NCBI GenBank assembly: GCA_002009475.1
Contig: AYTS01000061.1
Coordinates: forward strand, 1-64,000
DNA: 64,000 nt
Reading direction: 5' to 3'
DNA from: Candidatus Brocadia carolinensis
GTDB lineage: Bacteria; Planctomycetota; Brocadiia; Brocadiales; Brocadiaceae
This document shows, one piece after another, positions 3,921 through 57,498 of this stretch; within the stretch, counting starts at the first letter, position 1, and every line of letters starts with the position of its first letter. Below the pieces are notes generated by a model. The model had not been told where the DNA came from. It saw nothing but the letters and a program-made list of their open reading frames with translations, and did no database searches. A program made the translations under genes and the position numbers.

Positions 3921-6900
3921 TTCATAGTAATGCCCTTTTGCAGAAGACGATCTATATCGCCGGCTGATAATGGCTGGCTGTAAAGGTAACCCTGTATGTT
4001 ATTACAATGGAGTTCACGAAGAAAGTCAGCCTGTTCGGTGTTTTCAACGCCCTCGGCAACGATCTTCAGCTTAAGGCTCTCAGCTACGGCAACGATAGCG
4101 GTGACAATTGCTGCGTCATCCGGATTTGTTGTAATGTCTTGTATAAAAGACCGGTCAATCTTGAGTGTGTCTATGGGAAAACGTTTCAAATAGCTCAGAG
4201 AAGAATATTCGGTGCCAAAATCATCAATGGAAAAGAGTACCCCAACGGACTTCAACTCCCGGAGCGCAGCAAGAACAACCATGTCGTTTTGCATAATAAT
4301 ACCTTCTGTAAGTTCCAGCTCCAGACACTTCGGGTCAAGACCCGTCTCCCGCAACGCACGGGTAACCATATTCACCAGATTCTGCTGCCGGAACTGGCGC
4401 ACAGAAAGATTAACGGTAATACGGAGCGTGGAAAACCCTGCTTCGTGCCATGCCCTGGTTTGAGCACAGGCGGTCTTCAGCACCCATTCACCAATGGGAA
4501 CGATAAGGCCGGTTTCTTCGGCAATGGGAATGAATTTGGTAGGGAAGAGCATCCCCCGATGGGGATGCTGCCAGCGTACCAACGCTTCCATACTGATAAT
4601 CTGGCCGCTATTCTGATCCACCAGTGGCTGGTAATATACGACCAGTTCGCCTTTTGCCAGTGCCTTGCGCAGATCATTTTCCAGCATCAGCCGCTCAAGA
4701 TTATTAATATTCATGTCCTCCATGTAAAACTTGAAGGTACTCCCCCCTTCTTCTTTGGCATGGTACATGGCAATGTCGGCCTTTTTAATCAGATCGTCCA
4801 TGTCATTTGCATCTAACGGATATATGGCAATACCTATGCTCGAGGTTACATGTACTTCATGTCCCTCAAGGTAAAAGGAGGTAGACAGGGCACTAAGAAT
4901 TTTTTGCGCTATGAAAGCAGCGTCCTGTGGATGGGTAATGTCTGAGATGATAAAGATGAATTCGTCTCCTCCCAATCGTGATACCGTGTCTCCTTCTCGT
5001 ATGCAATTTTTCAGACGGTCTGCAAGGGTCTTCAGCAACTGATCACCAAAAGCGTGCCCTAACGTATCGTTAATCGTTTTAAACCGGTCAAGATCAAGGA
5101 ATATTACCGATGCCAGTTTTTTGTTTCTGCTTGCATGGATCATTTCCTGACGAAGACGGTCAGTAAACAAAATACGGTTGGGCAGATTGGTTAATGTATC
5201 GTAATGTGCCATATAAACAAGCTGCTTTTCTACCTCCTTTTTATCCGTAATATCCTCATGTATCGCAACGAAGTGGCATGTTTTTCCATCCGGGTCCAGC
5301 AGCGGGGTAATGGTCTGATTCACCGTATAAAGACTGCCGTCCTTGCGGCGATTTATGACCTCTCCATGAAAGGCATTTCCAGAAAGGATCGTTTGCCATA
5401 CCTGCTGATAGTATGCAGCATCATGTCTGCCTGATTTAAACAGGCGCGGGGTCAGGCCACAAGCCTCGTCTGATGTGTACCCGCTCAGTTTGGCAAAAGC
5501 GGCATTGACCCACGTAATTCGTCCCTCGCTATCGGTAATAAATACCGCATTGGCTACCGATGCCATTGCTGCGCTATGCAAACGCAACTGTTGCTGATCT
5601 CTTGCAACCAGCAAGGTTATGCTGATGCGGGCAGCCAGATTTTCCAGCAAGTGAATGGTTTTTGTATCAAAGACGCAGGGCTTGCAATCATACAAATTCA
5701 GCATACCCATCACCTTACCCTCAGAATATATGGGAACCGAAAGAAAGGAGTTCAATCCATAACGGTAAGCGCGTTCCCGGCATTGTTGAAAGACAGGTTC
5801 TTGCGTATCAATGGTCTGTGACTTTCCGGTACGAATGGCAAAACCAATGATGCACTCATGCCCAGGAACATCTTGCCATTGTGCTGTGAAATCTTTAAGA
5901 TAATTTCCGTGCGTGCCGGCTTGTGCTGAAATGCTAACCGTGCCATCTTTTTCTTTCATGCCGATCCATACCAGCGGGTAAGCGAAGATATCGGTAAGAC
6001 GCGTGCAAACATACGGCAAGATAAAATTCAGCGGTTGTCCCTGCAACACAAATTGATCAATCTCGTGCAGTAAAGCATCGATAGTCTGCGTTCGTTTGTG
6101 ATCCGTGATGTCAGCAACCACGGCCATGGTGCCGTACACACTGCCTTGTCTGTCGCGCAGTAATGCCGTGGAGATGCTGATGTCAATCGGCGAACCGTTT
6201 TGTTTTTGCCTGCGTACTTCTACGCCGGTCACCGACTCGCCCTGCAATACCCTTTCCCGCAATGCAAGGAAATCTTCTTGTTTATCTTGAGGAACGATGG
6301 GAAGAAAGTGGCCGAGCACTTCCTGCTCTTTCCAGCCAAACATGTGTTCTGCAGCCGGATTCCACATCACAACGTTTCCCTGTGGATCAAGGGTGATAAT
6401 CGCCAGCGGCGAGGCGTGAATCAAAGCTTGAAGAGTTTGGTTCGTCTTCCGTAATGCCTCTTCGGCCTGCTTTTGTGTGCTGATATCTGTTGCGATTTCA
6501 AGCCGGACAATACGTCCGTCCACCCAGGTGATTGCCCTGTCGGAAATGGTATACCATCGCCCGTTCAGGGTGTTCTGAAATTCCCAGTCATACCTGCCTG
6601 CAGGATTTCCCCTGGCGTCTAAAAGTTTATCGTTGGTGCAAAATTCACACGGACCTGCCTGATTTGCCTGAAATACCCGCCAACAGATTTTACCGGTCAC
6701 ATCCTCCAAAATATCCCGTAGACATTTGTTTACATAAAGGACTTCATGGGTTTTCATGTCTGCAACATATACCACGGCATTCAGTCCATCCAAAACTGAA
6801 GTAAGTCGGTTATGAGATTCATGCAAAGCCACTTCCGCACGTTTACGTTCCGTGATGTCTCTGGCAATGCCAATAGTTCTCGTGACATTTCCGCGACCGT

Positions 6901-8707
6901 CCCTTAACTGAAAAGTCCTGTATTCACATACGATTCCCGTGTCTTTAAACCTGAGCTCAAATTGCAGGCTTTCTCCTCGTATGGTTCTTGTATGGAAATC
7001 CATTGCTTTTTTCAGGTTCTCTTCATCAAAAAGAGGTGAAAAGGGTTTCCCAAAAAATTCTTCTGGTTTATGGCCGGTAAGCCTTTCAAAGATATTGTTT
7101 ACATATAAGATATTGCCTTGCGTATCGCAAATATATGCAAGATCTCTTATTTCTGAGAATAGCAATTTAAATATTTTTAATTCTTCATGTATCTTTTCAC
7201 TCTCAGTAATGTCCACAAATGCGACTCCCACACAATTATTCGTGAGGGGAAAAGCCTTGACTGAAAAGATGGTTTTGAAATTACCCGTGTTAGTAAAGTA
7301 GTCGTCTTTCAGGTTTTTTACCTTCCCGGAACGGATAACTTCGGCATACATTTTTGGAACTTCCGTGTCGATGAGGGCAGGAAAACACTCTGCCATGGTC
7401 TTTCCGATAAGACCCTCCAACGCCACTCCGGTAAACTGAATTGTTGCAGTATTGGCGGCAACAAGTTTGCAGGTTCTTATATCATCGATATTTTCCAAAT
7501 GCCACACAATCAGACCTATTTGTACATTATTTAAGATCTCTGCATAGAGCCGGATGCGTTCCTCCGCTCGTTTGCGTTCGGTAACGTCCCGGAAAACACT
7601 CAGAACGACTCTCTTATTCCCCCATGAAGTAATACTGGTATGGAGTTCAACAGAAATTTGATGACCATTTTTATGACGAATGCAAAAGTCCTGGGTAAAG
7701 GCAGCGCCCATAGTAACACAATCTTCAACCATCTTCGTATAGAGCGTTACGGACTCTTCATGATAGAGTTGTGTGTGGTGCATCCCGACAATCTCTTTAC
7801 GATGATATCCAAATAAGTCTTCCGCCCTTTGATTTACATCGGTAATTATCCCTGATTCCATATTGACAAGGAAAATTGCATCCTGTGAAGCTTCGATGAG
7901 GTTATGGTATTTTGCTTCAGTTGCCTCATCAGGCTGTTTCCCTTCGGTAATATTCTGCGCAGTGCCATAGATATGTATGACTCTACCCTGTGCATCCCCC
8001 CAAACCGGCTGAGCGTAATCACGCAGCCATAGGACTTCTCCGTTTTTGGTAATAATACGAAATTCGCTTATCTTCGGCTGCCCTGAAAGCAAATGATTCC
8101 GGTGCTGAAGGAAAACAGGTTTATCTTCGGGACGCACAAGACTATACCAACTATCACATCCATTTATTTCTTCAAGGGTATAGCCGGTAATTGGAGGAAA
8201 AGCTTCGGTTACACATTCACCTACGAACGTACCATCAGATTCCACACGTAAGGTATATGCAAAGTCAGAATTGGTTTCAAAGGTATTACTCCGCCCCTGA
8301 CAAATTTTCACATGCTTCACTGATTCATTCCGTTCCTTCTCTACCCTGGCATCCCTCAGACTCTTCTTTAATGCCATGGGTAAACCGTGCAATTTTCTCT
8401 TAAGGATATAGTCGCTCAGACCGGATTTCATTCCCTCTACGGCGATTTCTTCGTTCCCGTGATCGGTAACCATGATTACCGGCACAGAAGGAAACCGTTC
8501 TCTGATCGACCGGAGAATCCATAATCCATCTGCCCAGTCAAGAAGATATTCGGTAATCACCGCGTCGAAGGAGCCTTTTTCAATGACCTCGTCAAAATCC
8601 TCCCGTTTCATTATCTCCAGGAACTCTAAACCATAAAATTCCTTTTGAAAATCTCGTTTGATCTGACTCCGGTCATCCTGATTATTATCGATAAGCAGAA
8701 ACTTCAT
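3911..8707 (-). CDS. REC-7xPAS-GAF-GGDEF-EAL c-di-GMP signalling protein
   Basis: This 1598-residue protein probably makes and/or degrades c-di-GMP in response to several signals. In order: a receiver-like domain (residues 1-125), six PAS domains (about 140-880) each closing with an IT(E/D)xK-type segment, a GAF domain (about 895-1045), a seventh PAS (about 1050-1170), GGDEF (about 1180-1340, intact SRLGGDEF) and EAL (about 1350-1590, MEALVRW and DDFGTEYSS). Both catalytic motifs are intact. The receiver is odd: the phosphoacceptor position reads ITEYLL with Glu53 where homologues have Asp, so it may not be phosphorylated normally. No transmembrane segment is obvious, so it is probably cytoplasmic. 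PAS5 carries extra cysteines (CEFC), a possible metal or redox site. The gene stands alone, starting at ATG 8707. Confidence 0.92.
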   Translation of the reverse strand: MKFLLIDNNQDDRSQIKRDFQKEFYGLEFLEIMKREDFDEVIEKGSFDAVITEYLLDWADGLWILRSIRERFPSVPVIMVTDHGNEEIAVEGMKSGLSDYILKRKLHGLPMALKKSLRDARVEKERNESVKHVKICQGRSNTFETNSDFAYTLRVESDGTFVGECVTEAFPPITGYTLEEINGCDSWYSLVRPEDKPVFLQHRNHLLSGQPKISEFRIITKNGEVLWLRDYAQPVWGDAQGRVIHIYGTAQNITEGKQPDEATEAKYHNLIEASQDAIFLVNMESGIITDVNQRAEDLFGYHRKEIVGMHHTQLYHEESVTLYTKMVEDCVTMGAAFTQDFCIRHKNGHQISVELHTSITSWGNKRVVLSVFRDVTERKRAEERIRLYAEILNNVQIGLIVWHLENIDDIRTCKLVAANTATIQFTGVALEGLIGKTMAECFPALIDTEVPKMYAEVIRSGKVKNLKDDYFTNTGNFKTIFSVKAFPLTNNCVGVAFVDITESEKIHEELKIFKLLFSEIRDLAYICDTQGNILYVNNIFERLTGHKPEEFFGKPFSPLFDEENLKKAMDFHTRTIRGESLQFELRFKDTGIVCEYRTFQLRDGRGNVTRTIGIARDITERKRAEVALHESHNRLTSVLDGLNAVVYVADMKTHEVLYVNKCLRDILEDVTGKICWRVFQANQAGPCEFCTNDKLLDARGNPAGRYDWEFQNTLNGRWYTISDRAITWVDGRIVRLEIATDISTQKQAEEALRKTNQTLQALIHASPLAIITLDPQGNVVMWNPAAEHMFGWKEQEVLGHFLPIVPQDKQEDFLALRERVLQGESVTGVEVRRQKQNGSPIDISISTALLRDRQGSVYGTMAVVADITDHKRTQTIDALLHEIDQFVLQGQPLNFILPYVCTRLTDIFAYPLVWIGMKEKDGTVSISAQAGTHGNYLKDFTAQWQDVPGHECIIGFAIRTGKSQTIDTQEPVFQQCRERAYRYGLNSFLSVPIYSEGKVMGMLNLYDCKPCVFDTKTIHLLENLAARISITLLVARDQQQLRLHSAAMASVANAVFITDSEGRITWVNAAFAKLSGYTSDEACGLTPRLFKSGRHDAAYYQQVWQTILSGNAFHGEVINRRKDGSLYTVNQTITPLLDPDGKTCHFVAIHEDITDKKEVEKQLVYMAHYDTLTNLPNRILFTDRLRQEMIHASRNKKLASVIFLDLDRFKTINDTLGHAFGDQLLKTLADRLKNCIREGDTVSRLGGDEFIFIISDITHPQDAAFIAQKILSALSTSFYLEGHEVHVTSSIGIAIYPLDANDMDDLIKKADIAMYHAKEEGGSTFKFYMEDMNINNLERLMLENDLRKALAKGELVVYYQPLVDQNSGQIISMEALVRWQHPHRGMLFPTKFIPIAEETGLIVPIGEWVLKTACAQTRAWHEAGFSTLRITVNLSVRQFRQQNLVNMVTRALRETGLDPKCLELELTEGIIMQNDMVVLAALRELKSVGVLFSIDDFGTEYSSLSYLKRFPIDTLKIDRSFIQDITTNPDDAAIVTAIVAVAESLKLKIVAEGVENTEQADFLRELHCNNIQGYLYSQPLSAGDIDRLLQKGITMNFK

Positions 8708-8787
8708 AGTTTATCTCTGTGTTGTAGAGAGAGCTCTGCGAAAGAATACAAGGCATATAAAATACTGAGTGCAGATCAAGTTCTTTG

Positions 8788-9283
8788 TTAACCAAAAAAT
8801 ACCCTCCAAACAAAGAGAGAAATCATCACAAGGCCGATAATCAGTTTTAACATCGACCCCCCCAAAAAACCTACAAAGTTACCCAGGCCCGACTTCAACG
8901 CCCCCTGGTAACTCTTTCCTCCTATCATTTCAAAGACAATGGTGCCAACGATAGGTCCTAAAATCAAACCGACTGGACCACCCACAAAGAACCCGGCGCC
9001 GGTACCCACCAGTGAACCAATAATTCCCCATCGTGTAGCGCCAAATTTTTTTGCACCGTATACATTCCCAAGGTTTTCCAATACAACAGAAAAAAATGGC
9101 CATCAATGCAAAGAGCAACAACATTACCCAGGTAACTTTTTCAAAATGGGTACAGAGTGCATAGATAAAAGCTCCCACCCAAATCAGAGGCGTGCTCGGA
9201 ATGATCGGCACGACAATTCCAGCCATTCCCACTATCATTATCATGAGAGAAATTACAAATATCGCAATATCCCAAATTCCCAT
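8788..9283 (-). CDS. DUF456 family membrane protein, split by an A7 run
   Basis: A small hydrophobic protein matching the DUF456 pattern. The N-terminal half has two membrane segments (FVISLMIMIVGMAGIVVPIIP and WVMLLLFALMAIF). The C-terminal half begins ENLGNVYGAKKFGATRWG and continues with glycine-rich membrane stretches. As printed the halves lie in two overlapping frames. Removing one base from the seven-A run at 9090-9096 joins them as ALMAIFSVVLENLGNVYG. Start ATG 9283 follows a GGAAAG site. Function is unknown. Confidence 0.78.
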
Positions 9284-31276: not shown

Positions 31277-32290
31277 ATGAAACAGGGATTTCAGAGACAA
31301 TCATGCAAGGCATATACTATAGTGTTTTTTTGGGGAGCGTTTATTTCAATCTTCGTATTGTCAGGTATTACGTGTACCGCCAAAAAAGCGGATAAGACAG
31401 CACCCGCATCAGACAATCAGGTACCCACAGAAATGAGCGGGGAAGGCGCTGTTGAACCAGCACAACCAACAAGGCAATCACATGGCACAACAACGGTTAC
31501 CAGATCAGCGCCAACAAAGCAACCAAAGGATTCAATCGATATATCCTCTGATGTTAAAAGCATCGAGGGCATTGCATGGCAGGGAGACTATCTCTGGGTA
31601 TTGGATGATGAAAGGAAAATAATCGATCGATTTGATACTACTTTAGAGGAACTTTCCCCTGACCCTAAATATTCGATTGATCTCGCACAGCCAAGCGGAG
31701 GTGGGTTGAAAAAATTCAAAGGTATGGCCTTTGATAAAGGAGCAGAAGTACTCTGGGTTGCCGCAGAAGAGACAAATATAAATACTAAGAAAATGGTTCC
31801 GTTGCTGATTATGATCGATCCTACAAAAGGACAGACGATAAAAACAGTAGAGATGGATACTCCCGCAGATAAAGGATTTATCTCTGTTGAGGGCATTACC
31901 TGGGATGGAAAATACCTCTTGGTTGCTATCTATGCAGGTTTTTCAAGCTCATTTAACTGGATTGATCCCATGACAGGGAAAATCAAAAGGAGCATATTTG
32001 CTGATTGTAATCCCCGCGGTATCGCAACGGATGGGGATTATCTCTGGAGCATTTGCTACAACAAAAAGAGATTTCCTTCAAGAATAGATCAGAGAAAAAT
32101 AGAAGATGAAGAGCATGAGATGTTGCGTTCGCGTGAATTTATTAAAGACCTCCCAGAAGCAGAATCCATAGGACTTGTTTTTAATGGTACAGATCTCTGG
32201 TATGCAGATAAAATTGCGGAGAAGGTCAACCGGGTTATATTACCATTCACAAAACAAAAACCTGTTGTACCGCCTGTTAAAACAAAATAA
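31277..32290 (+). CDS. Secreted/lipoprotein-like beta-propeller protein of unknown function
   Basis: A 337-residue exported protein: signal sequence (IVFFWGAFISIFVLSGIT) with a cysteine at residue 33 that may be lipidated, a Thr/Pro/Ala-rich linker (35-85), then repeated blocks such as EGIAWQGDYLWVLDD, KGMAFDKGAEVLWVAAEE, EGITWDGKYLLVAIY and RGIATDGDYLWSICY. These recur about every 45-60 residues and look like blades of a beta-propeller related to SMP-30/virginiamycin-lyase folds. GAAAGGAG precedes ATG 31277. It is followed after 27 bases by a C13-type peptidase, suggesting a joint role in the envelope. Confidence 0.7.
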   Translation: MKQGFQRQSCKAYTIVFFWGAFISIFVLSGITCTAKKADKTAPASDNQVPTEMSGEGAVEPAQPTRQSHGTTTVTRSAPTKQPKDSIDISSDVKSIEGIAWQGDYLWVLDDERKIIDRFDTTLEELSPDPKYSIDLAQPSGGGLKKFKGMAFDKGAEVLWVAAEETNINTKKMVPLLIMIDPTKGQTIKTVEMDTPADKGFISVEGITWDGKYLLVAIYAGFSSSFNWIDPMTGKIKRSIFADCNPRGIATDGDYLWSICYNKKRFPSRIDQRKIEDEEHEMLRSREFIKDLPEAESIGLVFNGTDLWYADKIAEKVNRVILPFTKQKPVVPPVKTK

Positions 32291-32317: not shown

Positions 32318-33343
32318 ATGCAAGGATACTTAAAGGGATTTCAATATATCATTATGATATGTCTTATCCTTTCCGGAGGTTGTATCACATTTACACACAC
32401 ACACTTGCCTTTACCAGAACAGCCATCGACACTAAGACATACTCCGTGTTATTGCCATTTAAGCGGCATACCTGAACCCACCCCTATTGAATCTGAACCA
32501 GAAACAAAACCAGAACCCAAACCTGGCCCCCCAAGGGGAAATAAATACGCGGTTTTAATTAGTGCTGGCATAGCTAGAGATACTGAGCTCGCTATTGAAT
32601 ACTGGAATGATCTTGTATTGCAATATAACATGTTAATAGAGAATGGATTTCCGGAAGATCAAATTTGTGTTCTTTATGACAAAGGGCAAGATTATAATCC
32701 CATAGCTGGACATTCAATTACTGATTTGCCTGTTTCTATAGCCAATATCGAGTCAGTATTCAAGGCCTTAGGTGGTATAGGAACTAATACAGCTTGTGTA
32801 AAGCGTGCACTAACCGATGAGGATCTTTTATATGTCTGGTGGATGGGACATGGATCACTAAACTATGATGAACTAGGTACTTGTATCCTTTACATGCCTA
32901 TTAGTGGTTCTAAAGAAGTAGTTGTTGATACACAGTTGCACAATTTTATTGACTATGTTTCTCGTTATAGCAAACGCATTATTGCAATAATGACCTGTCA
33001 CTCCGGTGGCATCCTTGATGATATTAATATTGTCGGTAGTAAAACAGTTACTCTTACTTCATCATCATGCGAAGAATCATCTTCTTCCTATGATCCTTCC
33101 TTAACCTGCGACAGACTGAACCACGCAGAATTTAGTTATAACTTAACATGCGCTTTGCGTCAGTATGCCTGTGACTCACTCATTCTACCGCCAGTCGATG
33201 GCAATGTAGACGGTTATAGCGATGGTTATGTCTCATTGCTGGAAACATATTTGTATGTTTTATCACCATTAAATCGGCGGTCAACTCCTCAGATAGGTGA
33301 CCCTGATTCGATAAGTTCTTCGGCCTATTTAAATGGCCCATAA
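32318..33343 (+). CDS. Legumain-like (C13, clan CD) cysteine peptidase lipoprotein
   Basis: A lipoprotein (lipobox LSGGC, Cys22) with a Pro/Glu-rich linker (residues 52-72) and a clan CD peptidase fold. The catalytic His is in VWWMGHGS (His178) and the Cys in IAIMTCHSGG (Cys227), the His-Gly-Ser and Cys spacing of C13 peptidases; KYAVLISAG marks the first core strand. The C-terminal DGNVDGYSDGYVS looks like a calcium-binding or dockerin-like loop. ATG 32318 follows AAAGGAGA. It probably acts in the periplasm or on the outer membrane; the target is unknown. Confidence 0.78.
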   Translation: MQGYLKGFQYIIMICLILSGGCITFTHTHLPLPEQPSTLRHTPCYCHLSGIPEPTPIESEPETKPEPKPGPPRGNKYAVLISAGIARDTELAIEYWNDLVLQYNMLIENGFPEDQICVLYDKGQDYNPIAGHSITDLPVSIANIESVFKALGGIGTNTACVKRALTDEDLLYVWWMGHGSLNYDELGTCILYMPISGSKEVVVDTQLHNFIDYVSRYSKRIIAIMTCHSGGILDDINIVGSKTVTLTSSSCEESSSSYDPSLTCDRLNHAEFSYNLTCALRQYACDSLILPPVDGNVDGYSDGYVSLLETYLYVLSPLNRRSTPQIGDPDSISSSAYLNGP

Positions 33344-33450: not shown

Positions 33451-33879
33451 CTAAAGGGAAGACATTCCAAAACTAAGTGGCACAGTTTCTCCAACATCTA
33501 CATCTATTGATGTAGTCCGTGTTGCATAACCTTGAGCCGAGCATATTGCTGTATAGCCACCTGCTAGTGGTGAAAGCGTATAGTATCCAACAGAGTTTCT
33601 ATTTGTCGAATAATCATATACTCCATCAAGTTTCACATATGCTCCAGAAATGGCTGGCTCACCTGTGTCACGTTTGTTATTCCCATTTACGTCATGATAG
33701 GCTATTCCATGAACTTTTTGTCCCCAATCAACGCCCTGTTGACGGCCCTCTTGAGGGCACTGACAACAATCACTATCATAAATAGTAATTGTTATGCACC
33801 CGCAAATTAACATGCTGAAGAACAAAACGCCTCCTATCATCAACCCATAAAAGCACACGTTTCTATTTTTAAAACCCAT
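33451..33879 (-). CDS. Small lipoprotein with SdrD B-like domain
   Basis: About 142 residues: signal sequence (LMIGGVLFFSMLICGC), a cysteine near residue 28 as lipidation site, a DCCQC cluster, and one SdrD-B/carboxypeptidase-regulatory-like domain (GIAYHDVNGNNKRDTGEPAISGAYVKLDG) with a putative calcium site. An AGGAGG site sits before ATG 33879. It is probably a surface or periplasmic structural protein and is convergent with the C13 peptidase gene. Confidence 0.75.
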   Translation of the reverse strand: MGFKNRNVCFYGLMIGGVLFFSMLICGCITITIYDSDCCQCPQEGRQQGVDWGQKVHGIAYHDVNGNNKRDTGEPAISGAYVKLDGVYDYSTNRNSVGYYTLSPLAGGYTAICSAQGYATRTTSIDVDVGETVPLSFGMSSL

Positions 33880-33977: not shown

Positions 33978-35337
33978 TCAGAAATAAACAATAACAGAGG
34001 CCAGGAACAGGTTCTCGGTGAGGTCGAAAGTGCCGAAAGTGCCTGGTAAAGCAAAGTCCTCATCATCAACATCATTTGCCCACCGGAACTGGTATGCAGC
34101 GTCGATACTGAACCTTTTAAAGGTGATACCGCTGCCCACGCTAACGCCATATACGTCTGTAGGCTCATCCAGGGACGGACGGGGTTCGTAAAACAGTCCA
34201 CCACGGACGGGGACAATCATCTTTTGCTTAAATATCAGGTATTCTGTGCCAAACCTTACTGCAAAGGTATCGTCGATGTCCCTGTCTTCAGATGCCCCTG
34301 CAATTGGACGAGTTTCAACTCCATCTTCGTCTTCCTGCTGAAACTCTGACCAATCCGTCCACGTTACATTCATGGAGAAGGATAATGCGTCGCTGTAACG
34401 AAAACCAAAGCCGGCGCCAAATGACATGGGATAATCTATTTCAAGATGACTCCTTTTATGAGCAGGTTCTATCTGAACCGGAGAACCATCAAAAGTGGCA
34501 CTTTGATCTATAATGCGGTCGACATCTGCCGTATAAGGGGAATGATACACAGCACCGAAGCTCAGGCGCTTCTCCTCCTTTTCCCATACATCCAGCAGCA
34601 TACCTGCCGTTACATTTACTGCCTGAAAATTTTTGAATGTAACATCTAGCGCAGAACTTTCGGTAAACGGAGACCCAAAAACTGTACCAGCACCAAATGT
34701 CCTGGTTTTTTCCTTCCACGCATAGTCTCCAAAAAAATTCATCCGTATAGAAATTTACGGCCACACCAATGGATAGCCGGGGCATCACCTGCATGGCAAT
34801 GGCTGGCGTTAAGGCGCCTATCCCACCTTTTGATACGAAATCGTGTGATATATTTTCAGTTTGATCTATACTAGGGTCTTCGACTTTATAATTAAAAGAA
34901 ACATCCATATGAAAATCGTATATTTGGTGATAATTCAAGGCTGCAACCAGGTTCTTTCCAAATATCTTAAATGGATATGCAACACTGGTAAAATTCAAAT
35001 CTCCGCGGGATTCCGATTCATTATCAAGGGTAATTCCTGTTGTCAGTCCTATACTATCGGGGAGATGATCAAAATCCTGTTGTGCAGACAAGAATGAGCC
35101 TACTACGGAAAGCTCAGGCCTTTCCAGTTGTGTCAGACCGCCGGGATTCCACGATGTGGCCGTGGCATCGTCGGCGACGGCAATAAAGGCGCCACCCATG
35201 CCTAATGCCCTTGCGCCGGAACCAACAGGAAGCGGGACTGGGCTGATCTGAAATTGTGCAAAAGAGGACTGGGAAATTAGCAAAGAGACTTGGGTAAGCA
35301 GCACTATAACGAGAAAAAGAAGTTGTTTCGGTTTCAT
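33978..35337 (-). CDS. OmpP1/FadL/TodX-like outer-membrane protein, split by an A7 run
   Basis: The N-terminal signal (LLFLVIVLLTQVSLLI) is followed by the FadL-type hatch region (PLPVGSGARALGMGGAFIAVADDATATSWNPGGL), beta strands and a C-terminal aromatic end (ASVIVYF). The protein should form a beta barrel that lets hydrophobic compounds through the outer membrane. Two overlapping frames are joined by removing one base from the seven-A run at 34731-34737, giving NFYTDEFFGDYAWKEKTRTFG. Restored length is about 452 residues. It may belong to the transcription unit of the upstream TPR-CsgG gene, but a 230-base repeat lies between. Confidence 0.85.
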
Positions 35338-35868: not shown

Positions 35869-38055
35869 TTATTTTGTAATGGCAAGGTCTTGCTTTTTTA
35901 TCTTCCCTGTGCCTTTTGTGCTTATTCTGGCAAACGAGGTGTCAGGCTGTACCTGTACTATTCGGGCAACGGCATCCAGCGGTTCTTTTAAGACGACATC
36001 TCCCTCTTTTACCTCCCGAAACGTCAGCAATTTCATGCCTACTAACACCCCGCTCGTTGCGCCGGCATTGACATGGAATCCATTCCCTGAAACACGGATA
36101 ATACTCCCCTGCACCATAGGATATTGCCGTTTCATTTTGAGTGATAAACCATGCATGAGCCACGCAAGGTTTTCCGCGCTTTTGTCCTCGCCGTAGATAT
36201 CCGTATTAACCAGCACCTGAGTCGTTTCCGTGTCTACCAGCCGCAGGGTGACGTTAATGCCATTGGAATCCTCTTCCACAGCGCCAAAGAGCATACCCTC
36301 GGCCGCACGGATCTTCCCGACCCTTATGGCCGTGTCGGGAGAGGTAAGTTCTGTGTTGGCGATTTTTTGTTCACGAAGGATCTCCTCAAGTTTTGCCCGG
36401 TCACGTTCCACAAAGTTAAATCTCTTCGGATCTTCATCAAATGCCCTGAGCAACAGGGAGTACAGGGTTTCCGAGCGAACACCTTCTTCTGCAAACGTCC
36501 TGAAGGGGAGCAATGCGACGGTATACCGGGCATCCGTTTCCAGGAGATAAAAGCTCTTTTTGGTAATCTTCACCGGTGCAAGCTGCGTTTCGTTTCCCTC
36601 TCTGTCAACGGCCTTTACCAGTACGGTATTCTCTCCTTCGCTGAGCGTTACCAGATGATTAAAGAAGACGTGCTTCGCCGGACGTATCTCTAAAGGCTGC
36701 TGATTGACGAAGAGCCGGGCAATACCGCCATCGTCGTGCGCATGTATGCCGAAGAAGACGGTTGAGTCATGGACAATCGCGGCTTTTAAATCAGAAAATA
36801 CCACCGGAGGAATCGTGTCTTTTGACGCTATCGGTGAGACAGACGCCCCTTTTGCTTCTTTTCCTGAATTTTCAGCGTTCCCGCGGGAAGGATTTGTGAA
36901 AGCTGATTGTGCGCCCGCCTCGTGAGAAGCCAGCATCCTCTTTACTTCGGCCCTTCCCATGTTACCTTGAGCAACCAGGACGGGTGTACCCTTTGCCTGG
37001 TGCGTGTACCGGATCTGTTTGTCCCGTGTGCCGCCGGGCAATAGTGATGCCTTAATGTCTAGTTGTTCTTTGCCCGTTGTTTCATTTCCAGCCACATCGA
37101 CCACCTTTATTGAGAAGGTATGGCCGTCCGTCAGGGCAATATCCTGCTTAAAATGCACCACTTTATCCTGAGTAATGGGTATCTCCGTGTTATTAAGAGA
37201 GAGTCGCTGTATCCCGTTGTCGTCCGTGATGGTTCCCGTCACAGTTGCAATATGCCTGCCGTCTCTCTTCTGTATTTGTATATCATCCAGATACAAAACC
37301 GGCGGGCTCAGATCCAGCATGAGTTTCAAATCATGCCGTGCACTTTTGCCTGAAAGGTCAGTTGCCTCCAGACTGATCACATTCTCTCCCCTGTGGAGGG
37401 AAATGGTTTCGTCGAACGGAAGGTCCTTTTCGGCAAGTTCAATGAATAGTCGTCTCCCCTGGATAGAGATATCGTTTACATAGGAATCGTCAGTAACCAT
37501 CCCTTGTAACTTTACCAGCGGAGTATTGACAATCTGTCCATCACTATGTGAGGCAACCATGAACTCCGGGGGTTTCGTGTCCCCTTTCGTCATCTTTATG
37601 AGTGCCTCATTGGCTTTATTCAGATAATACTTTGCCCTGGCAGAATCGGCAGTGGAGAGAGATATTTCGAGCTCCTTTTTAGCATCTTCATATTCGCCCT
37701 GGTGGTAATACACGATTCCCAGTTCGCGATGGGCAAAGTATTCCCAGAAATGCATCCCGTAACTCCTGGCTGAACGCTGGTCACGACTTCTCAGATGGAT
37801 AGACTTTTGAAAGTCCTGGACGGCCTCATCATAGTGCCCACCGTCAGCAAACCATCGGCCGCGGATGTAGTAGTTCCACCACTTGCCCCGGTGAAGGTTA
37901 AAATTCCTGGCAATCTCTTCTTTCGTATGACCCGGCTCGAAATAATCCCGCCAGTTGTCCGTGCCAATCTGAGAAGTTGTTGTACAACCCGCAAGAGGCA
38001 CGAGAAACACGTGCAGTATCATAAGGAATCTGAATTTTTTATATACGGTATTCAC
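35869..38055 (-). CDS. TPR-Ig-like-CsgG lipoprotein
   Basis: A lipoprotein (lipobox VPLAGC) of about 728 residues. Near residues 55-170 lies a TPR region (YYIRGRWFADGGHYDEAVQDFQ, GIVYYHQGEYEDAKKELE). Two or three Ig-like beta domains follow with recurring ENVISLEATDLSGK/ENTVLVKAVDREGNE blocks. The C-terminal 240 residues are a CsgG/FlgO-like domain (YTVALLPFRTF, FNFVERDRAKLEEILREQ) with a closing small beta domain. Domains of this type occur in envelope assembly proteins and curli secretion. GTG 38055 was taken as start; a TTG at 38073 is possible. Its C-terminal half is duplicated in the gene at 39093. Confidence 0.8.
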   Translation of the reverse strand: MNTVYKKFRFLMILHVFLVPLAGCTTTSQIGTDNWRDYFEPGHTKEEIARNFNLHRGKWWNYYIRGRWFADGGHYDEAVQDFQKSIHLRSRDQRSARSYGMHFWEYFAHRELGIVYYHQGEYEDAKKELEISLSTADSARAKYYLNKANEALIKMTKGDTKPPEFMVASHSDGQIVNTPLVKLQGMVTDDSYVNDISIQGRRLFIELAEKDLPFDETISLHRGENVISLEATDLSGKSARHDLKLMLDLSPPVLYLDDIQIQKRDGRHIATVTGTITDDNGIQRLSLNNTEIPITQDKVVHFKQDIALTDGHTFSIKVVDVAGNETTGKEQLDIKASLLPGGTRDKQIRYTHQAKGTPVLVAQGNMGRAEVKRMLASHEAGAQSAFTNPSRGNAENSGKEAKGASVSPIASKDTIPPVVFSDLKAAIVHDSTVFFGIHAHDDGGIARLFVNQQPLEIRPAKHVFFNHLVTLSEGENTVLVKAVDREGNETQLAPVKITKKSFYLLETDARYTVALLPFRTFAEEGVRSETLYSLLLRAFDEDPKRFNFVERDRAKLEEILREQKIANTELTSPDTAIRVGKIRAAEGMLFGAVEEDSNGINVTLRLVDTETTQVLVNTDIYGEDKSAENLAWLMHGLSLKMKRQYPMVQGSIIRVSGNGFHVNAGATSGVLVGMKLLTFREVKEGDVVLKEPLDAVARIVQVQPDTSFARISTKGTGKIKKQDLAITK

Positions 38056-38199
38056 TGTGTGTTCTACCCTCAACGAATGAGATCTTTCCCTGTTCTCGCA
38101 GGTAGGTCAGGCGTTCTCGTCCCGCAGTATCATGACAGACAGTGACATATGTCCAAGTATAAGGAATTTCAAGCCGGTTATTTCCCCTCCAAAAAGCCG

Positions 38200-38355
38200 T
38201 GTAGGGTAGGCCCACCTACTAAGATTAACTGAGTCGGGCAATGTCCGCCCTACATCACTGCGGATTATCAGGCTTCGCCGCCGTGAGCGCAGACGAACGG
38301 CTTGCAATCCGAACCCATTCCCCTCCCTCGATGGGAGGGGCTAGGGGAGGGTGGG
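38200..38355. repeat. Block of short palindromic repeats downstream of the endonuclease gene
   Basis: It contains the GTAGGGTAGG...CGGGCAATG...CGCCCTACA unit (38207-38257), a CGAACGGCTTGCAATCCGAACC unit, and a CCCTCCCTCGATGGGAGGGGCTAGGGGAGGGTGGG-type G/C-rich unit (38320-38355) that runs into the last codons of the DUF559 gene. Related units are at 30742-30797, 30903-30920 and 46356-46370. Confidence 0.75.
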
Positions 38356-38682
38356 ATAAACAACATTTCTTATCATCTCCAATACCCCTTGTGAATTTTT
38401 TAAAACTTTGTTATTCCAAAATCTTAAAACTTTAAAACCCTGCTCTTCAAACCACCTATCTCTATTCCCATCCTTTTCTGCACAATGTTGACCGCCGTCA
38501 ACTTCTACAATTATTCTTTTTTCATAACATACAAAATCGACCACATACTTACCAATCGGTTCTTGTCTTCTAAATTTACAACCTCCTAACTGTCTCAATC
38601 TTAAATATCTCCATAATAACCTTTCTGCATCTGTAGGCCTTTTTCTCAGAACTTTAGCTATATGCTGAAACTCATCTCTCAA
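38341..38682 (-). CDS. DUF559 (Vsr-like) endonuclease domain protein
   Basis: A 113-residue protein with the PD-(D/E)XK/Vsr-like fold of DUF559: LRKRPTDAERLLWRYLR at the start, CKFRRQEPIGKYVVDFVCYEKRIIVEVDGGQH in the centre (catalytic Asp and the ExD pair) and FKVLRFWNNKVLKN near the end. Such proteins probably bind or cut DNA; the function is not known. The last residues (VVYPTLP) are encoded by a G/C-rich palindromic repeat, and a matching unit lies just upstream (38695-38730). The gene sits between the two CsgG-type paralogues, in repeat-rich DNA, and looks like a passenger. Confidence 0.85.
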   Translation of the reverse strand: MRDEFQHIAKVLRKRPTDAERLLWRYLRLRQLGGCKFRRQEPIGKYVVDFVCYEKRIIVEVDGGQHCAEKDGNRDRWFEEQGFKVLRFWNNKVLKNSQGVLEMIRNVVYPTLP

Positions 38683-39092: not shown

Positions 39093-40148
39093 TTATTTTG
39101 TTATAGCAAGGTCTTTCTTTTTTACCTGCGTAGGGCATTCTCCACAGATTTCAACAAAAGCAGTCCTGGGCTGCACCCGCACGACTCGTGCAACCGCATC
39201 AAGCGGCTCTTTTACAACGAAATTCCCTTCCCGTATCTCACGGAAGAGTAATAATTTCATACCCACCTCTATGCCCTTTGCAGAGCCTGCATCTACGTAA
39301 AAACCACCGTCGGAAACACGAGTAACGTTCCCCTGCACCATGGGAAACTGCCGCTTTATCTTCAAAGACAGCCCGTAGATAAGCCATTCGAGATTTGTTA
39401 TACTTTTATCTTCATCATACACACGTGCGCTTGCACGTATGCGGGCCGTTTCCGTATCAATCAGACGCAAGGTGATGCTTATGCCATTGGCGTCTTCGTC
39501 CGCCGTTCCTACGAATATCCCATCTGCCGCGACGATCTTCCCAAGCTTTATCGCTGTATCAGGAGACACAATGCTGGTGTTGCTGATTTTTTGCTCACGG
39601 AGGATCTCTTCGAGCCTTGCCAGGTCCCGCTCCACAAAATGAAATCTCTTCGGTTTTTCGTCGAATGCCTTGATGAAAAGAGAATAGATAGCTTCTGTGG
39701 GTATGCTCTGTCCGGCAACGGTCTTTATCGGAAGCAGTGCAACGGTATACCGGGAATCTGTCTCAGGCAGATCGAAGGTCTTTTTGGTAATTTTCACCGG
39801 CGAAAGCTGCATTTCGTTTCCCCCCCTGTCAACGGCCTTTACCAGTACGGTATTCTCTCCTTCGTTAAGCGTTAACAGATGATTGAAGAAGACGTGCTTC
39901 CCGGCACGGATTTCCAACGGGTGTTGATTTACGAAAAGTTGCGCAACACCGCCGTCATCGAACGCTTCGCCGCTAAAGAAGAGGTTGGTATCGGTAACCA
40001 TAACGGATTTTAGATCAGTATATATCACCGGCGGTATAGTATCCTTTACCGTGTCTGATAAAGTGGTAACAAAGCTTATGAAAGGCGATACAAACAACAC
40101 AACAAGTGCATGGCATCTGATTTTTTTATATAAAGCGTTTCTCTTCAT
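39093..40148 (-). CDS. Ig-like-CsgG exported protein, paralogue of the TPR-CsgG protein
   Basis: About 351 residues: signal sequence (CHALVVLFVSPFISFVTT), one Ig-like domain (PPVIYTDLKSVMVTDTNLFF, ENTVLVKAVDRGGNE) and a CsgG-like domain (YTVALLPIKTV, FHFVERDLARLEEILREQ). It matches the C-terminal half of the 728-residue protein at 35869 in order and spacing but lacks TPR and lipobox. ATG 40148 (GAAGGTGG upstream) was preferred to GTG 40163. It begins 54 bases behind the caspase gene and is probably co-transcribed with it under the c-di-GMP riboswitch. Its seven-A run at 40121-40127 is intact. Confidence 0.8.
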   Translation of the reverse strand: MKRNALYKKIRCHALVVLFVSPFISFVTTLSDTVKDTIPPVIYTDLKSVMVTDTNLFFSGEAFDDGGVAQLFVNQHPLEIRAGKHVFFNHLLTLNEGENTVLVKAVDRGGNEMQLSPVKITKKTFDLPETDSRYTVALLPIKTVAGQSIPTEAIYSLFIKAFDEKPKRFHFVERDLARLEEILREQKISNTSIVSPDTAIKLGKIVAADGIFVGTADEDANGISITLRLIDTETARIRASARVYDEDKSITNLEWLIYGLSLKIKRQFPMVQGNVTRVSDGGFYVDAGSAKGIEVGMKLLLFREIREGNFVVKEPLDAVARVVRVQPRTAFVEICGECPTQVKKKDLAITK

Positions 40149-40202
40149 ACGGACCACCTTCACCCATCAGATTATTACGGAATCTGCCACAAAACAATGG
40201 GG

Positions 40203-42198
40203 TCATTTTCGTTTCGCAACAATTTTTTCTCTCATCTTTGCAGCTATGTCATACGCCACAGTCCCCAAATTTTCCTCACTCCGGAAGGGGTGTTCAAACA
40301 CATCGATGAGTGTAGTCGCCGTGTCAACTACCTCTATCCTTATCATGCGCTGATCCTGCCCTTCTCCCGGATAGATTTCTCCAAAACAAAGGAACTGAGC
40401 GCCTTGTATCTTTCCCAGCTCGACTCTGTACATCTCATCGGCAAGAACAGAGCCGCTGAGCCTTTGTTCCCGTAAAATCTCCTCTTGCAATTCCAAATCC
40501 CTTTCTACCACACGCAAATCGCTTTGTGCCAGGAGGGCATCGATGATCCTTTGCCGGAGCATCTCCATGTTGTGCCGGTTTGATAGTGCACCCATTTTTA
40601 AGTTGAATTCCTTAACAGATACAGGCACAGCGCGGAGAGCGTCTGCGGATGCCGGGTTTTTCTCTGACGGTTTTTTGGCGAGCACCGGCTTTTCTTCCCC
40701 GGTTTGTTTCTTTACCATGGTCTCTAATTCTTTGATAAGGGCATCGATATTTTCCTTTGTCTTTTGCAAATCTGCATTCTGAAGCACCGTTTCTGCATAT
40801 ACCGATTGGGTACTCTCGGGAGTAATAGCTTCCGGCATGGTAACATTTTGTTTTTTATTATTCAACAGTATCGTAGTATTCGTTTTCTCACCTGATTCTA
40901 CGTAAACCGGAGAAGGTCTGTCTGCGTCTGCATATGCCATGCGCGCACCACCAGAAGCGCCGGAATTGTCACCAAAATAAAATTGTTCAAAGAGTTGCTC
41001 TGAATAGACCTCTGTCATTTCATCAGGATTGATAAATACCGTGCCTGGTACATCCGGGTGACCCCTCATTTTTATCATAACGGGATATACCCCGCTTGCG
41101 AGTTTTATGTTCAGTGGAGTGATACCCACTTCCTTGCCTTTTATATATACCGTTGCACCCTCAGGTTTGCCATAAATACGCAGACCTCCCCAGGGAGGTG
41201 TTGCAATTTTTTGAGCACCCACTTTGATACCGGTTTCTACTCCGGGAAATCCCAGGGGAAGATTGTTGTCAAAGTTTCCTGAGACATCCGGGTGCTGGGT
41301 GTTGTGTGTTGCACTCCTTACTTTTTCTTCTGCAAAATCGAATGCCTCTGCAAGGGTAACGATGCCGTTTTGGTTTCCTGCTGCATCTGCCTTTCCTCTT
41401 AAACCTTCAAGCAGATAGTGGGTAAATACGCCGTGACCACCCCCAAATTGATTGGACTCTACGGAAACCTCGCTTGCCCTGCTCGCGCTGACAATCCCCC
41501 ATCCCTCGCGCGTTGATTTAAGCGTGGAAAGCGCTGCATGAATCGTGTTCGTCCTTCCTCTGATATTTACAGTACTTTTTGTAAGGCCGGAGCTGTGACA
41601 GGCATCTGCAAAGAAGACCAGCCTTTTTGCCGCGATGTATCGCTTCATGTCGGCATTGACATCTTCCATGTGATAAGCAGTTGCAGACAGGCTGCCGGCT
41701 TCAGAGTCATGCATGAGTAAGTAGAGATTGCTGGGCCGGTCGGGTTCGGGTTCGCCATGACACGCCATGAAGATAACGACAAAATCAGTCTCCTTTGCCT
41801 TTTTAAGAAAGTTGGTGATAGACAGCGTGACGTTTTTCAGGGTTGCCTGCTCGTTCTTTAAGAGTAAAACGTGGTCTTTCTTAAAATCGCCACCGGCCGG
41901 ACTGGTGATAAAATCATAAAAGGCCTGGGCATCAGCGTCAGCATATTGCAGATCGGCTATTCGGGGGTCATTATAATCTGATATGCCAATCACGACAGCA
42001 TACCGCTGAATATCATTGTCTTCAAAATATTGTTTGGGCGGTAGTATACCGTGAACAAAAGCATCTCCACCTTCTTTTTTTTTTCGTTGATGCCGTCTCC
42101 AGAGGAGATGCATCGGCAAAAAGGCTGACCAAAACTATTGATAAGGCGAGGCACAGATACCTCCTGGCGTACAAGAGAAACAAGAAAATAGTATTCAT
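40203..42198 (-). CDS. Exported caspase-like peptidase with PEGA and CsgG-like domains, split by a T10 run
   Basis: A signal sequence (CLALSIVLVSLFADA) leads to a C14 caspase domain: YAVVIGISDYND, catalytic His in FMACHGEPEP (about residue 147) and Cys in FFADACHSSG (about residue 200). A PEGA domain follows (GLRIYGKPEGATVYIKGKEVG), then a charged linker with a coiled coil and a CsgG-like C-terminus (LRVVERDLELQEEILREQ). Signal and caspase are in different frames; removing one base in the ten-base run at 42075-42084 joins them as ETASTKKKEGGDAF. ATG 42198 lies nine bases behind GGGGG and directly after a c-di-GMP riboswitch-terminator. Peptidase targets are unknown. Confidence 0.85.
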
Positions 42199-42212
42199 AA
42201 AGTTCATCCCCC

Positions 42213-42265
42213 AAAAAAACAAAAGCCTTACTGCAAAGATTTCTCAACATCTTCGGCAGCAAGGC
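42213..42265 (-). terminator. Riboswitch-controlled intrinsic terminator in front of the caspase gene
   Basis: On the minus strand GCCTTGCTGC... (42265-42256) pairs with GCAGTAAGGC (42234-42225), one mismatch, and is followed by TTTTGTTTTTTT (42224-42213). The left arm is also the 3' part of the c-di-GMP aptamer, so aptamer and terminator cannot both form. The simplest reading is an ON switch: ligand-bound aptamer prevents termination. Confidence 0.75.
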
Positions 42266-42372
42266 TATCTTCTAAAAATCGACCTGAAACTTTAACTCAG
42301 ACCAAAAACTTAGGATTTGATGGAAGATCCTTTACTTTGCGCCCCCTGATCACTCAGGGTTTACCTTTATCG
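42251..42372 (-). ncRNA. Class I cyclic di-GMP riboswitch (GEMM-I)
   Basis: Read on the minus strand, the element has the GEMM-I order: GGTAAACC, a P2 hairpin CCCTGA-GTGA-TCAGGG with a GNRA tetraloop (42357-42342 region), the conserved GGCGCAAAGTAAAGGATC stretch (42343-42326), a P3 stem formed by GGATCTTC and GAAGATAGCC, and a closing TGCTGCCGAAG. These are the conserved parts that bind c-di-GMP in the class I aptamer. It ends about 50 bases before the start codon of the caspase-PEGA-CsgG gene and overlaps an intrinsic terminator. The window also encodes a GGDEF/EAL protein (3911-8707). Confidence 0.88.
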
Positions 42373-42561
42373 TGATGTATTCATACTATTAAATGTGAGC
42401 CTTCTGTTTAACTATATAGCAATATAAATACCACAAACTGGAAAACGAAGCCTATCAATAATAGGTTTTCCATAAGCCATTTTTTGACTTATGGTTGTAA
42501 TTATTCAAGGGAAGATACAAACAGAAGGGACTTATTAAACTCAATATAAAAAAAGTGAGAC

Positions 42562-52227: not shown

Positions 52228-52237
52228 CAATAATATT

Positions 52238-52345
52238 CCCGGCAGTGACTTACTCTCCCAGCTTTCGCCAGTACCATCAGCGTAAAAAGCTTAACTACCG
52301 TGTTCGGAATGGGAACGGGTGTTTCCTTCTTACTATGCCCACCGG
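52238..52345 (-). rRNA. rrf: 5S ribosomal RNA
   Basis: The minus strand reads CCGGTGGGCATAGTAAGAAG...CACCCGTTCCCATTCCGAAC...GGGAGAGTAAGTCACTGCCGGG, with the conserved 5S loop B/C sequence and complementary ends. Length about 108 bases. Confidence 0.93.
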
Positions 52346-52424
52346 AAAAAACAAATCATGAATTACTTAACGGTAACAATTGACACTATATATTGTGTGT
52401 CTCTAAAATAACAAAAAAGTCAAG

Positions 52425-55421
<2,997 letters not shown>

Positions 55422-55537
55422 TATGTCATCTTATTTCACACACAATTTGAGGATCAAATTGCTACCCGTTAAGTATTCATTTTTCAAAGAACAAAACACC
55501 AACAATCTCACTTTAAATCTTATAGCACTATCTAAAG

Positions 55538-55613
55538 TGGTGGAGATGAGCGGGGTCGAACCGCCAACCTCTGCCTTGCAAGGGCAGCGCTCTCCCAGTT
55601 GAGCTACATCCCC
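55538..55613 (-). tRNA. tRNA-Ala (TGC)
   Basis: The minus strand folds as a complete cloverleaf: acceptor GGGGATG/CATCTCC, D-arm GTAGCTCAACTGGGAGAGC, anticodon loop CTTGCAA with TGC, T-arm GGTTCGACCCC, and encoded CCA. Lies in the 16S-23S spacer. Confidence 0.97.
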
Positions 55614-55637
55614 CTCTATAACCTTTATTACATAAGA

Positions 55638-55715
55638 TGGTGGGCCTAAGTGGACTCGAACCACTGACCTTTCCCTTATCAGGGGAATGCTCTAAACCAA
55701 CTGAGCTATAGGCCC
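55638..55715 (-). tRNA. tRNA-Ile (GAT)
   Basis: Complete cloverleaf on the minus strand: acceptor GGGCCTA/TAGGCCC, anticodon loop CTGATAA with GAT, T-arm GGTTCGAGTCC and encoded CCA. It precedes tRNA-Ala in the rRNA spacer, the classical order. Confidence 0.97.
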
Positions 55716-55793
55716 AATACATTTTTTAACGTCCCTTTGGGCCCACAATCCAAAAAAATCAAAAGTCATTGCGTGCGAAGTAGGCATGAAAAA

Positions 55794-57385
<1,592 letters not shown>

Positions 57386-57498
57386 TTCATAATTAAAATT
57401 ATAAAGGCTCCAGGTAAAACCCAGAGATCTTAACTTCTTCTATACTACATAGCTGATTTTACATCAGCAGCACTACTCGCACGCATTTGACTTCCATT

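Follow-up and report, generated by a model that had tools for sequence, protein, structure and literature searches.

The C13 (legumain/GPI8-like) peptidase gene described here belongs to a bacterial subfamily that keeps one constant neighbour over several phyla, a gene for an exported beta-propeller protein, termed PROP below, which lies directly upstream on the same strand. The partnership is well supported by the gene order in every close relative that was found, and the likely working partner of the peptidase is this propeller rather than the caspase encoded nearby. The genes were studied in a stretch of 64,000 nucleotides of Candidatus Brocadia carolinensis (contig AYTS01000061.1), referred to throughout as the window; its features are collected in Table 1. 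An earlier, sequence-only reading of this DNA had stressed the closeness of the peptidase to the caspase and had mentioned the propeller as a neighbour only.

Table 1. Features of the window that are discussed in the text, with the basis of each assignment.
Feature	Position	Strand	Basis
Exported beta-propeller protein PROP (337 aa), the constant partner on the upstream side	31277..32290	+	model, fold, co-occurrence
Likely ribosome-binding site (AGGAG) for the C13 gene	32305..32309	+	sequence
C13 (legumain/GPI8-like) peptidase lipoprotein, 341 aa	32318..33343	+	PF01650 and fold matches to legumain, PIG-K
Predicted signal peptide and lipobox LSGGC (Cys22)	32318..32383	+	pattern match, hydrophobic stretch
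Pro/Glu-rich linker, about residues 50-74	32465..32539	+	sequence
Catalytic His178 codon (VWWMGHGS)	32849..32851	+	invariant in 9/9 aligned relatives
Catalytic Cys227 codon (MTCHSGG)	32996..32998	+	invariant in 9/9 aligned relatives
EF-hand-like loop DGYSDGYVSLLE, residues 298-309	33209..33244	+	aligned loop in 14/15 relatives
Lipoprotein of CarboxypepD_reg type, closing the caspase operon	33451..33879	-	Pfam 32.8 bits, cut-off 32.3
FadL/OmpP1-type gene, two overlapping frames	33978..35337	-	
Further frames of the caspase operon	35869..38073, 39093..40163	-	
DUF559-like ORF, interrupting the caspase operon	38341..38682		by eye
Caspase (C14) and PEGA protein, opening the adjacent operon	40203..42119	-	PF00656 E 1.1e-15; not a constant partner
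Signal-peptide-like frame	about 42120..42200	-	by eye
c-di-GMP-I-GGC riboswitch aptamer, directly upstream of the caspase gene	42251..42374	-	61.1 bits, cut-off 59
Complete rRNA operon (16S, two tRNAs, 23S, 5S)	52237..57393	-	

The peptidase and its family

Family C13 is best known from eukaryotes, through legumain and a subunit of the GPI transamidase. The window gene begins with an ATG that has an AGGAG 5' of it, and its product carries the lipobox and the Pro/Glu linker noted in the sequence-only reading; in the C13 alignment the long linker is seen in some Brocadiaceae copies only and is not conserved outside the Brocadiaceae. The GHGS/TCHSGG dyad, which the same reading had called intact, bears this description out. 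His178 and Cys227 are invariant among the aligned relatives (Table 1), and the His-Cys dyad motif is present in all 15 C13 proteins of a wider set, so that a chance resemblance can be set aside.

The HMM search and the structure prediction that had been suggested as checks were both run. Against Pfam Peptidase_C13 (PF01650) the window protein scored 27.6 bits (E 2.6e-6, cut-off 22.8), and it is the one match to this profile in the 3.7-Mb assembly. A PDB search with the single sequence returned a metacaspase as its sole match (E 0.039), while a nine-sequence C13 profile reached human legumain (7fqh_A, E 2.4e-5), spanning the catalytic domain, and metacaspase-4 (E 2.4e-6). The AlphaFold2 model has a mean pLDDT of 55; it is good in parts only and poor after residue 228, and its confident part lies nearest to the legumains and PIG-K among the Foldseek/VIA-align 2 matches listed, which span about residues 71-251. 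Bacterial caspase homologues (C14) share the clan and the dyad with C13; the window protein, however, fails the NCBIfam EACC1-associated caspase model (16.5 bits, cut-off 140) and passes the cut-off for C13.

With legumain the protein shares the fold of its first half (5obt, Z 12.4, rmsd 2.9 over 156 residues), the His-Cys dyad and the profile match over the catalytic domain. It differs from legumain in being a lipoprotein paired with a propeller, and in its C-terminal part, where legumain has a prodomain of about 110 residues and the window protein has only 32 residues after an EF-hand-like loop. Judged by its sequence, the window protein is a member of family C13, though it is no legumain in the narrow sense, since it has no prodomain and, by profile alignment, a different residue at one S1 position.

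The sequence-only reading had also described a calcium-loop tail, and this part of it held only by half. The window protein does carry, near its end, DGNVDGYSDGYVSLLE, a stretch of the DGNVDGYSDGY type that contains an EF-hand-like loop, and the loop can be aligned in all relatives save a 15th, in which masked bases have removed the region. It is imperfect, and it is no added tail, because 32 residues follow it and because the relatives, too, have it where the catalytic domain ends. Compared with the EF-hand consensus, the full pattern is found in several relatives, e.g., DTDGDGSVSWQE, DTNGDGKISFEE and DYDGNGYVSLSE, whereas the loops of the Brocadiaceae have drifted away from it. We regard the loop as a feature of the family, and calcium binding as doubtful in the window copy, which has a Tyr at position 3 of the pattern.

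The S1 pocket allows a guess at specificity. PMC4357240 describes the Asn-specific, zwitterionic S1 pocket of legumain as made of Arg44, His45, Ser216 and Asp231. The position of Arg44 is taken by Glu in 13 of the 15 C13 members and by Cys in the other two, as read from a single profile alignment with modest E-values in which Asp231 could not be aligned. Since this position is acidic in 13 of 15, our guess would be that a basic P1 residue is likelier than Asn for these C13 proteins.

A constant propeller neighbour

The gap between PROP and the C13 gene in the window is 27 bp. At the seven loci of an initial search, as in the remaining Brocadiaceae copies, C13 is directly preceded by a relative of the window's propeller gene. 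A C13 profile was searched over 392, 395, 396 and 400 genomes of four phyla, three of which, outside that of the window, were picked because the initial search had matches there. Ten matches scored above 340 bits, and PROP stands directly upstream on the same strand in ten out of ten. Together with L004 (in which PROP is cut by the contig end), L007 and L008, they make up 13 distinct loci with close C13 relatives, some labels denoting the same genome (L002 and G002, L003 and G416, L005 and G418, L006 and G419); the arrangement is found at all 13, with gaps of 11-54 bp. What had been named as a neighbour in one genome is thus a neighbour in all close relatives, and the pair has been seen in anammox bacteria, Nitrospirota, Acidobacteriota and Chloroflexota.

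The pairing extends to two remote relatives. In G603 (139 bits) PROP and C13 are adjacent with a gap of 1 bp, and in G176 (115 bits) both are contained in one reading frame of 521 aa, the propeller coming first. Other C13 proteins do without it: in G1046 (162 bits) and G1038 (148 bits) the C13 proteins are 1215-1243 aa long, one of them having a P-domain, and PROP is absent from the locus; there is none either in the loci of the weaker matches in G1169, G877, G478, G890 and G969. Because these mid- and low-scoring proteins lack PROP, the pairing rule holds for one C13 subfamily. The reciprocal search with a PROP profile over 217 genomes gave four strong matches (>350 bits), all of them in genomes with C13, after which the score drops from 353 to 75 bits. 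Among the 30 loci of this search, C13 was found only with those four, with G603, and in G483 at 18.7 bits. The 59 related genomes give the same picture: both C13 and PROP are present in the same four and neither in the remaining 55.

Over 15 loci the pairwise identities of PROP and C13 are correlated (r = 0.88, with 0 of 10000 permutations as high), a co-divergence that operon linkage alone could give, as linked genes are expected to correlate. The placing of the pair is informative as well. It faces the caspase operon in G000 and G008 and follows it in G002 and G015, G002 being Candidatus Brocadia pituitae (AP021856.1), of the same genus as the genome of the window. G002 and G008 share a 158-bp repeat of 92% identity on the far side of the pair; its orientation relative to the operon does not differ between them, from which it follows that both genes were inverted jointly while their flanks stayed in place. 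G015 and G026 have flanks that are about 95% identical, and where G015 has the pair, G026 has unrelated genes. Export signals are found on both proteins where both N-termini are full-length, and on neither in G603.

Between G000 and G008 the identity is 38% for C13 and 46% for PROP, whereas the caspase keeps 82% and the fumarase genes 84-93%; by this comparison the pair changes fast in the Brocadiaceae. Such rapid divergence of both proteins, together with the strict pairing, the first place of PROP in the operon and the one fusion, could also be expected if PROP were a substrate or a silencing inhibitor of C13, as in a protease with its cognate inhibitor. We consider this unlikely, as PROP is strongly conserved at GFSSxxN and FADCxPRG, the most conserved stretches of its family, which look more like a functional site than bait, and fusion to an inhibitor would be unusual.

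Searches of other collections added nothing: that of viral contigs had 14 pattern matches, none of them a relative, and those of plasmids and of PHROGs gave none. The PADLOC defence models matched neither C13 nor PROP, the caspase model matching the caspase only. In the open-licence literature we found no description of a C13-propeller pair in bacteria.

The caspase operon next door

That the window holds a second clan CD peptidase within 10 kb of the caspase is correct. The two genes are 6.9 kb apart, and the caspase, like the C13 protein, is the only match to its family profile (PF00656) in the assembly. The order runs from the caspase through CsgG-type proteins, a FadL-like protein and the small CarboxypepD_reg lipoprotein to the C13 pair, and the CarboxypepD_reg gene adjoins the caspase operon also in genomes that are without the pair (L050, L051). 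The joint occurrence of C13 with this operon, proposed as a check in the sequence-only reading, proved to be a matter of one lineage. C13 is found in four of 59 genomes, that of the window included (G000, G002, G008 and G015), and in these four Brocadiaceae it always lies 6-8 kb from the caspase gene. A strong caspase match (E below 1e-100) is present in 20 of the 59, of which 18 belong to the same family of 33 genomes, the match being full-length in these 18. Within the family, C13 occurs in 4 of 18 genomes with a full caspase and in 0 of 15 without (one-sided Fisher p 0.075, uncorrected for kinship).

The four Brocadiaceae copies group as a single clade in both trees, with support of 98/95 for C13 and 97/93 for PROP; the C13 tree has 14 rows, as L008, whose C13 is cut by masked bases, was left out though kept in the identity matrix. 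Because there is one clade and one site, the four neighbour cases count as one event. Repeated independent insertion beside the caspase operon, which we had expected from the low identity of the syntenic copies, is rejected on the same two trees. Outside the family no linkage was found in six genomes. Four of the six with this C13 have no caspase match, though some genomes may be incomplete, the other two have the caspase on other contigs than C13, and the flanks of the six C13 loci hold no homologue of the window's caspase. A general C13-caspase pair is therefore rejected. In the best explanation, to which we give middling confidence, the caspase operon is a shared address inherited within the Brocadiaceae and not a required part of the system.

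This bears on the idea that C13 and the caspase form one proteolytic cascade of the envelope, in which one activates the other and the CsgG/LpoB-like and outer-membrane proteins of the operon act as sensors. The single C13 and C14 matches of the genome lie close together, they have stayed neighbours in all four Brocadiaceae even after the inversion, and in G002 the pair comes right after the operon and shares its direction, the caspase gene of the operon having an upstream c-di-GMP riboswitch. The single event behind these four cases, the 14 of 18 family genomes that have the caspase gene and no C13, the outside genomes just described, and the opposite strands of pair and operon in the window all speak against it, and we hold a cascade to be quite unlikely.

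Several features of the operon deserve mention in their own right. The riboswitch recurs in front of the caspase gene in 4 of 19 further caspase loci (G002, G003, G008 and G009), and a riboswitch scan of nine loci outside the Brocadiaceae (L003, L005, L006, L007 and L160-L164) gave none; by eye, its 3' part could pair with the stretch that follows before a T-run, as in a transcription switch. The signal-peptide-like frame upstream of the caspase ORF is in another frame, beside an A run, and the annotation of the caspase may miss its export signal. Two proteins of the operon match CsgG (Pfam), and the C-terminus of the caspase resembles theirs; the caspase, by eye, has an EF-hand-like loop too. 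The FadL/OmpP1-type gene is split in the window and is one ORF in G002, G007, G008, G009, G015 and G026, so that the split is either a recent loss or a sequence error. At or near the site that the pair occupies elsewhere, G036 has a papain-like protein (Pfam C1; L058, 16411-18594) beside the caspase operon, and G026 has a trypsin-like ORF, seen by eye and with no Pfam match (L051, 8751-9707). A promoter and terminator scan found 11 promoter-like sites where 8.2 were expected, and 5 terminator-like sites, all on the minus strand, where 2.3 were expected; we base nothing on these counts.

Possible roles of the propeller

The patchy spread over the phyla would be natural if this were an ordinary secreted scavenging peptidase, with the propeller an unrelated companion in the operon. 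Related papain-like (C1) genes do adjoin the pair in Nitrospirota (L160, 7673-8601) and in Chloroflexota (L006, 12094-13035), as in a digestive gene set, each being disrupted once; neighbours were checked for peptidases only where they looked like peptidases, and the papain-like neighbours are no counted enrichment. Chance companions would hardly stay together over such divergence or become fused, and we find this account improbable.

The AlphaFold2 model of PROP shows 20 strands, and most of the domain is modelled with confidence, 169 residues having a pLDDT over 90. Its nearest solved folds are 3mbr (Z 21.4, rmsd 2.5 over 207 residues) and 3qqz (Z 20.2, rmsd 2.9 over 208 residues), that is, the glutaminyl cyclases of the plant and bacterial type and YjiK; the next propellers match at Z 17. 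PROP in the model looks like a five-bladed propeller, five being the number of blades in the glutaminyl cyclases. It shares this fold with the cyclases and YjiK, and differs from them in sequence (11-15% identity). The catalytic Glu of the glutaminyl cyclases lies in the motif LYEST. That PROP is itself an enzyme, of the glutaminyl cyclase type or another propeller lyase or esterase modifying the ends made by C13, is suggested by the gap in Z below these folds and is nevertheless very improbable, since the best member of the PROP family scores 15.9 against the Glu_cyclase_2 cut-off of 22.3, the window copy has no match, and LWVLD-like residues stand in place of the motif. With the cyclase profile failing and the catalytic Glu missing at the matching place, we read PROP as a binding protein.

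Some propellers are more elaborate. Those of L003, L161 and L162 are extended at the N-terminus by a further domain, about 370 aa long, that contains the motifs WCGPATGQM, EHW and WFNDP, and a second propeller-like gene lies upstream of them. Our guess from these motifs is that the extra domain of the fused Nitrospirota propellers may be papain/C39-like. Pfam does not bear this out, its best match being Peptidase_C39_2 (E 0.42, in one of the three), the search for solved relatives of the domain had a best E of 0.61, and a profile comparison with the C39-type neighbour covered 63 columns, signal peptide included. A C39-type gene lies near the pair in L160, and in L161 as judged by the same N-terminus. 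In L172 (G097, 6010-9015) a C13 gene (50 bits) lies beside a weak propeller, on its other side, that is fused to a transglutaminase core domain.

What is observed is the pairing; from here we infer how PROP might bind and gate the enzyme, with what specificity and on which substrates. We propose, with moderate confidence, that the two genes form an envelope module in which PROP binds the downstream C13 protein and controls or presents its substrates. The exported, five-bladed PROP would bind the enzyme, usually a lipoprotein, at the cell envelope, and would recruit, gate or present substrates to its active site. The His178/Cys227 dyad would act on exported or surface proteins, some members may respond to calcium through the EF-hand-like loop, and the acidic residue in place of legumain Arg44 would favour a basic P1 residue over Asn.

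The proposal that PROP recruits or gates substrates draws on the GPI transamidase, which has the same two ingredients in PIG-K and PIG-T. PMC7522609 and PMC8465894 describe PIG-K as linked to PIG-T by a disulphide, and PIG-T as predicted to be a propeller in front of the PIG-K active site that controls substrate access. Both systems thus have a C13 catalytic subunit (8imy_K matches the window protein with Z 12.1 and rmsd 2.4 over 145 residues) and a propeller-type partner. PROP, however, looks like a closed five-bladed propeller, there is no PIG-T chain among the fold matches listed for it, an absence that does not count against kinship, and its likeness to PIG-T may be one of analogy or of homology. 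We know of no transamidation by a bacterial C13-PROP pair. A two-part bacterial transamidase or sorting enzyme, in which the propeller would hold exported proteins before the C13 active site, there to be cleaved and linked to an acceptor in the envelope, and which would be an analogue or relative of PIG-K/PIG-T spread by transfer, is in our estimate a long shot.

For the study of this family, the lead is corrected in that the propeller, rather than the caspase, is the partner worth pursuing. A bacterial C13 subfamily with a constant propeller partner, present over several phyla and fused once, offers a small two-protein test system. As an envelope module the pair would allow the control of a C13 active site by a propeller to be put to the test, and it may be a bacterial counterpart of the transamidase core.
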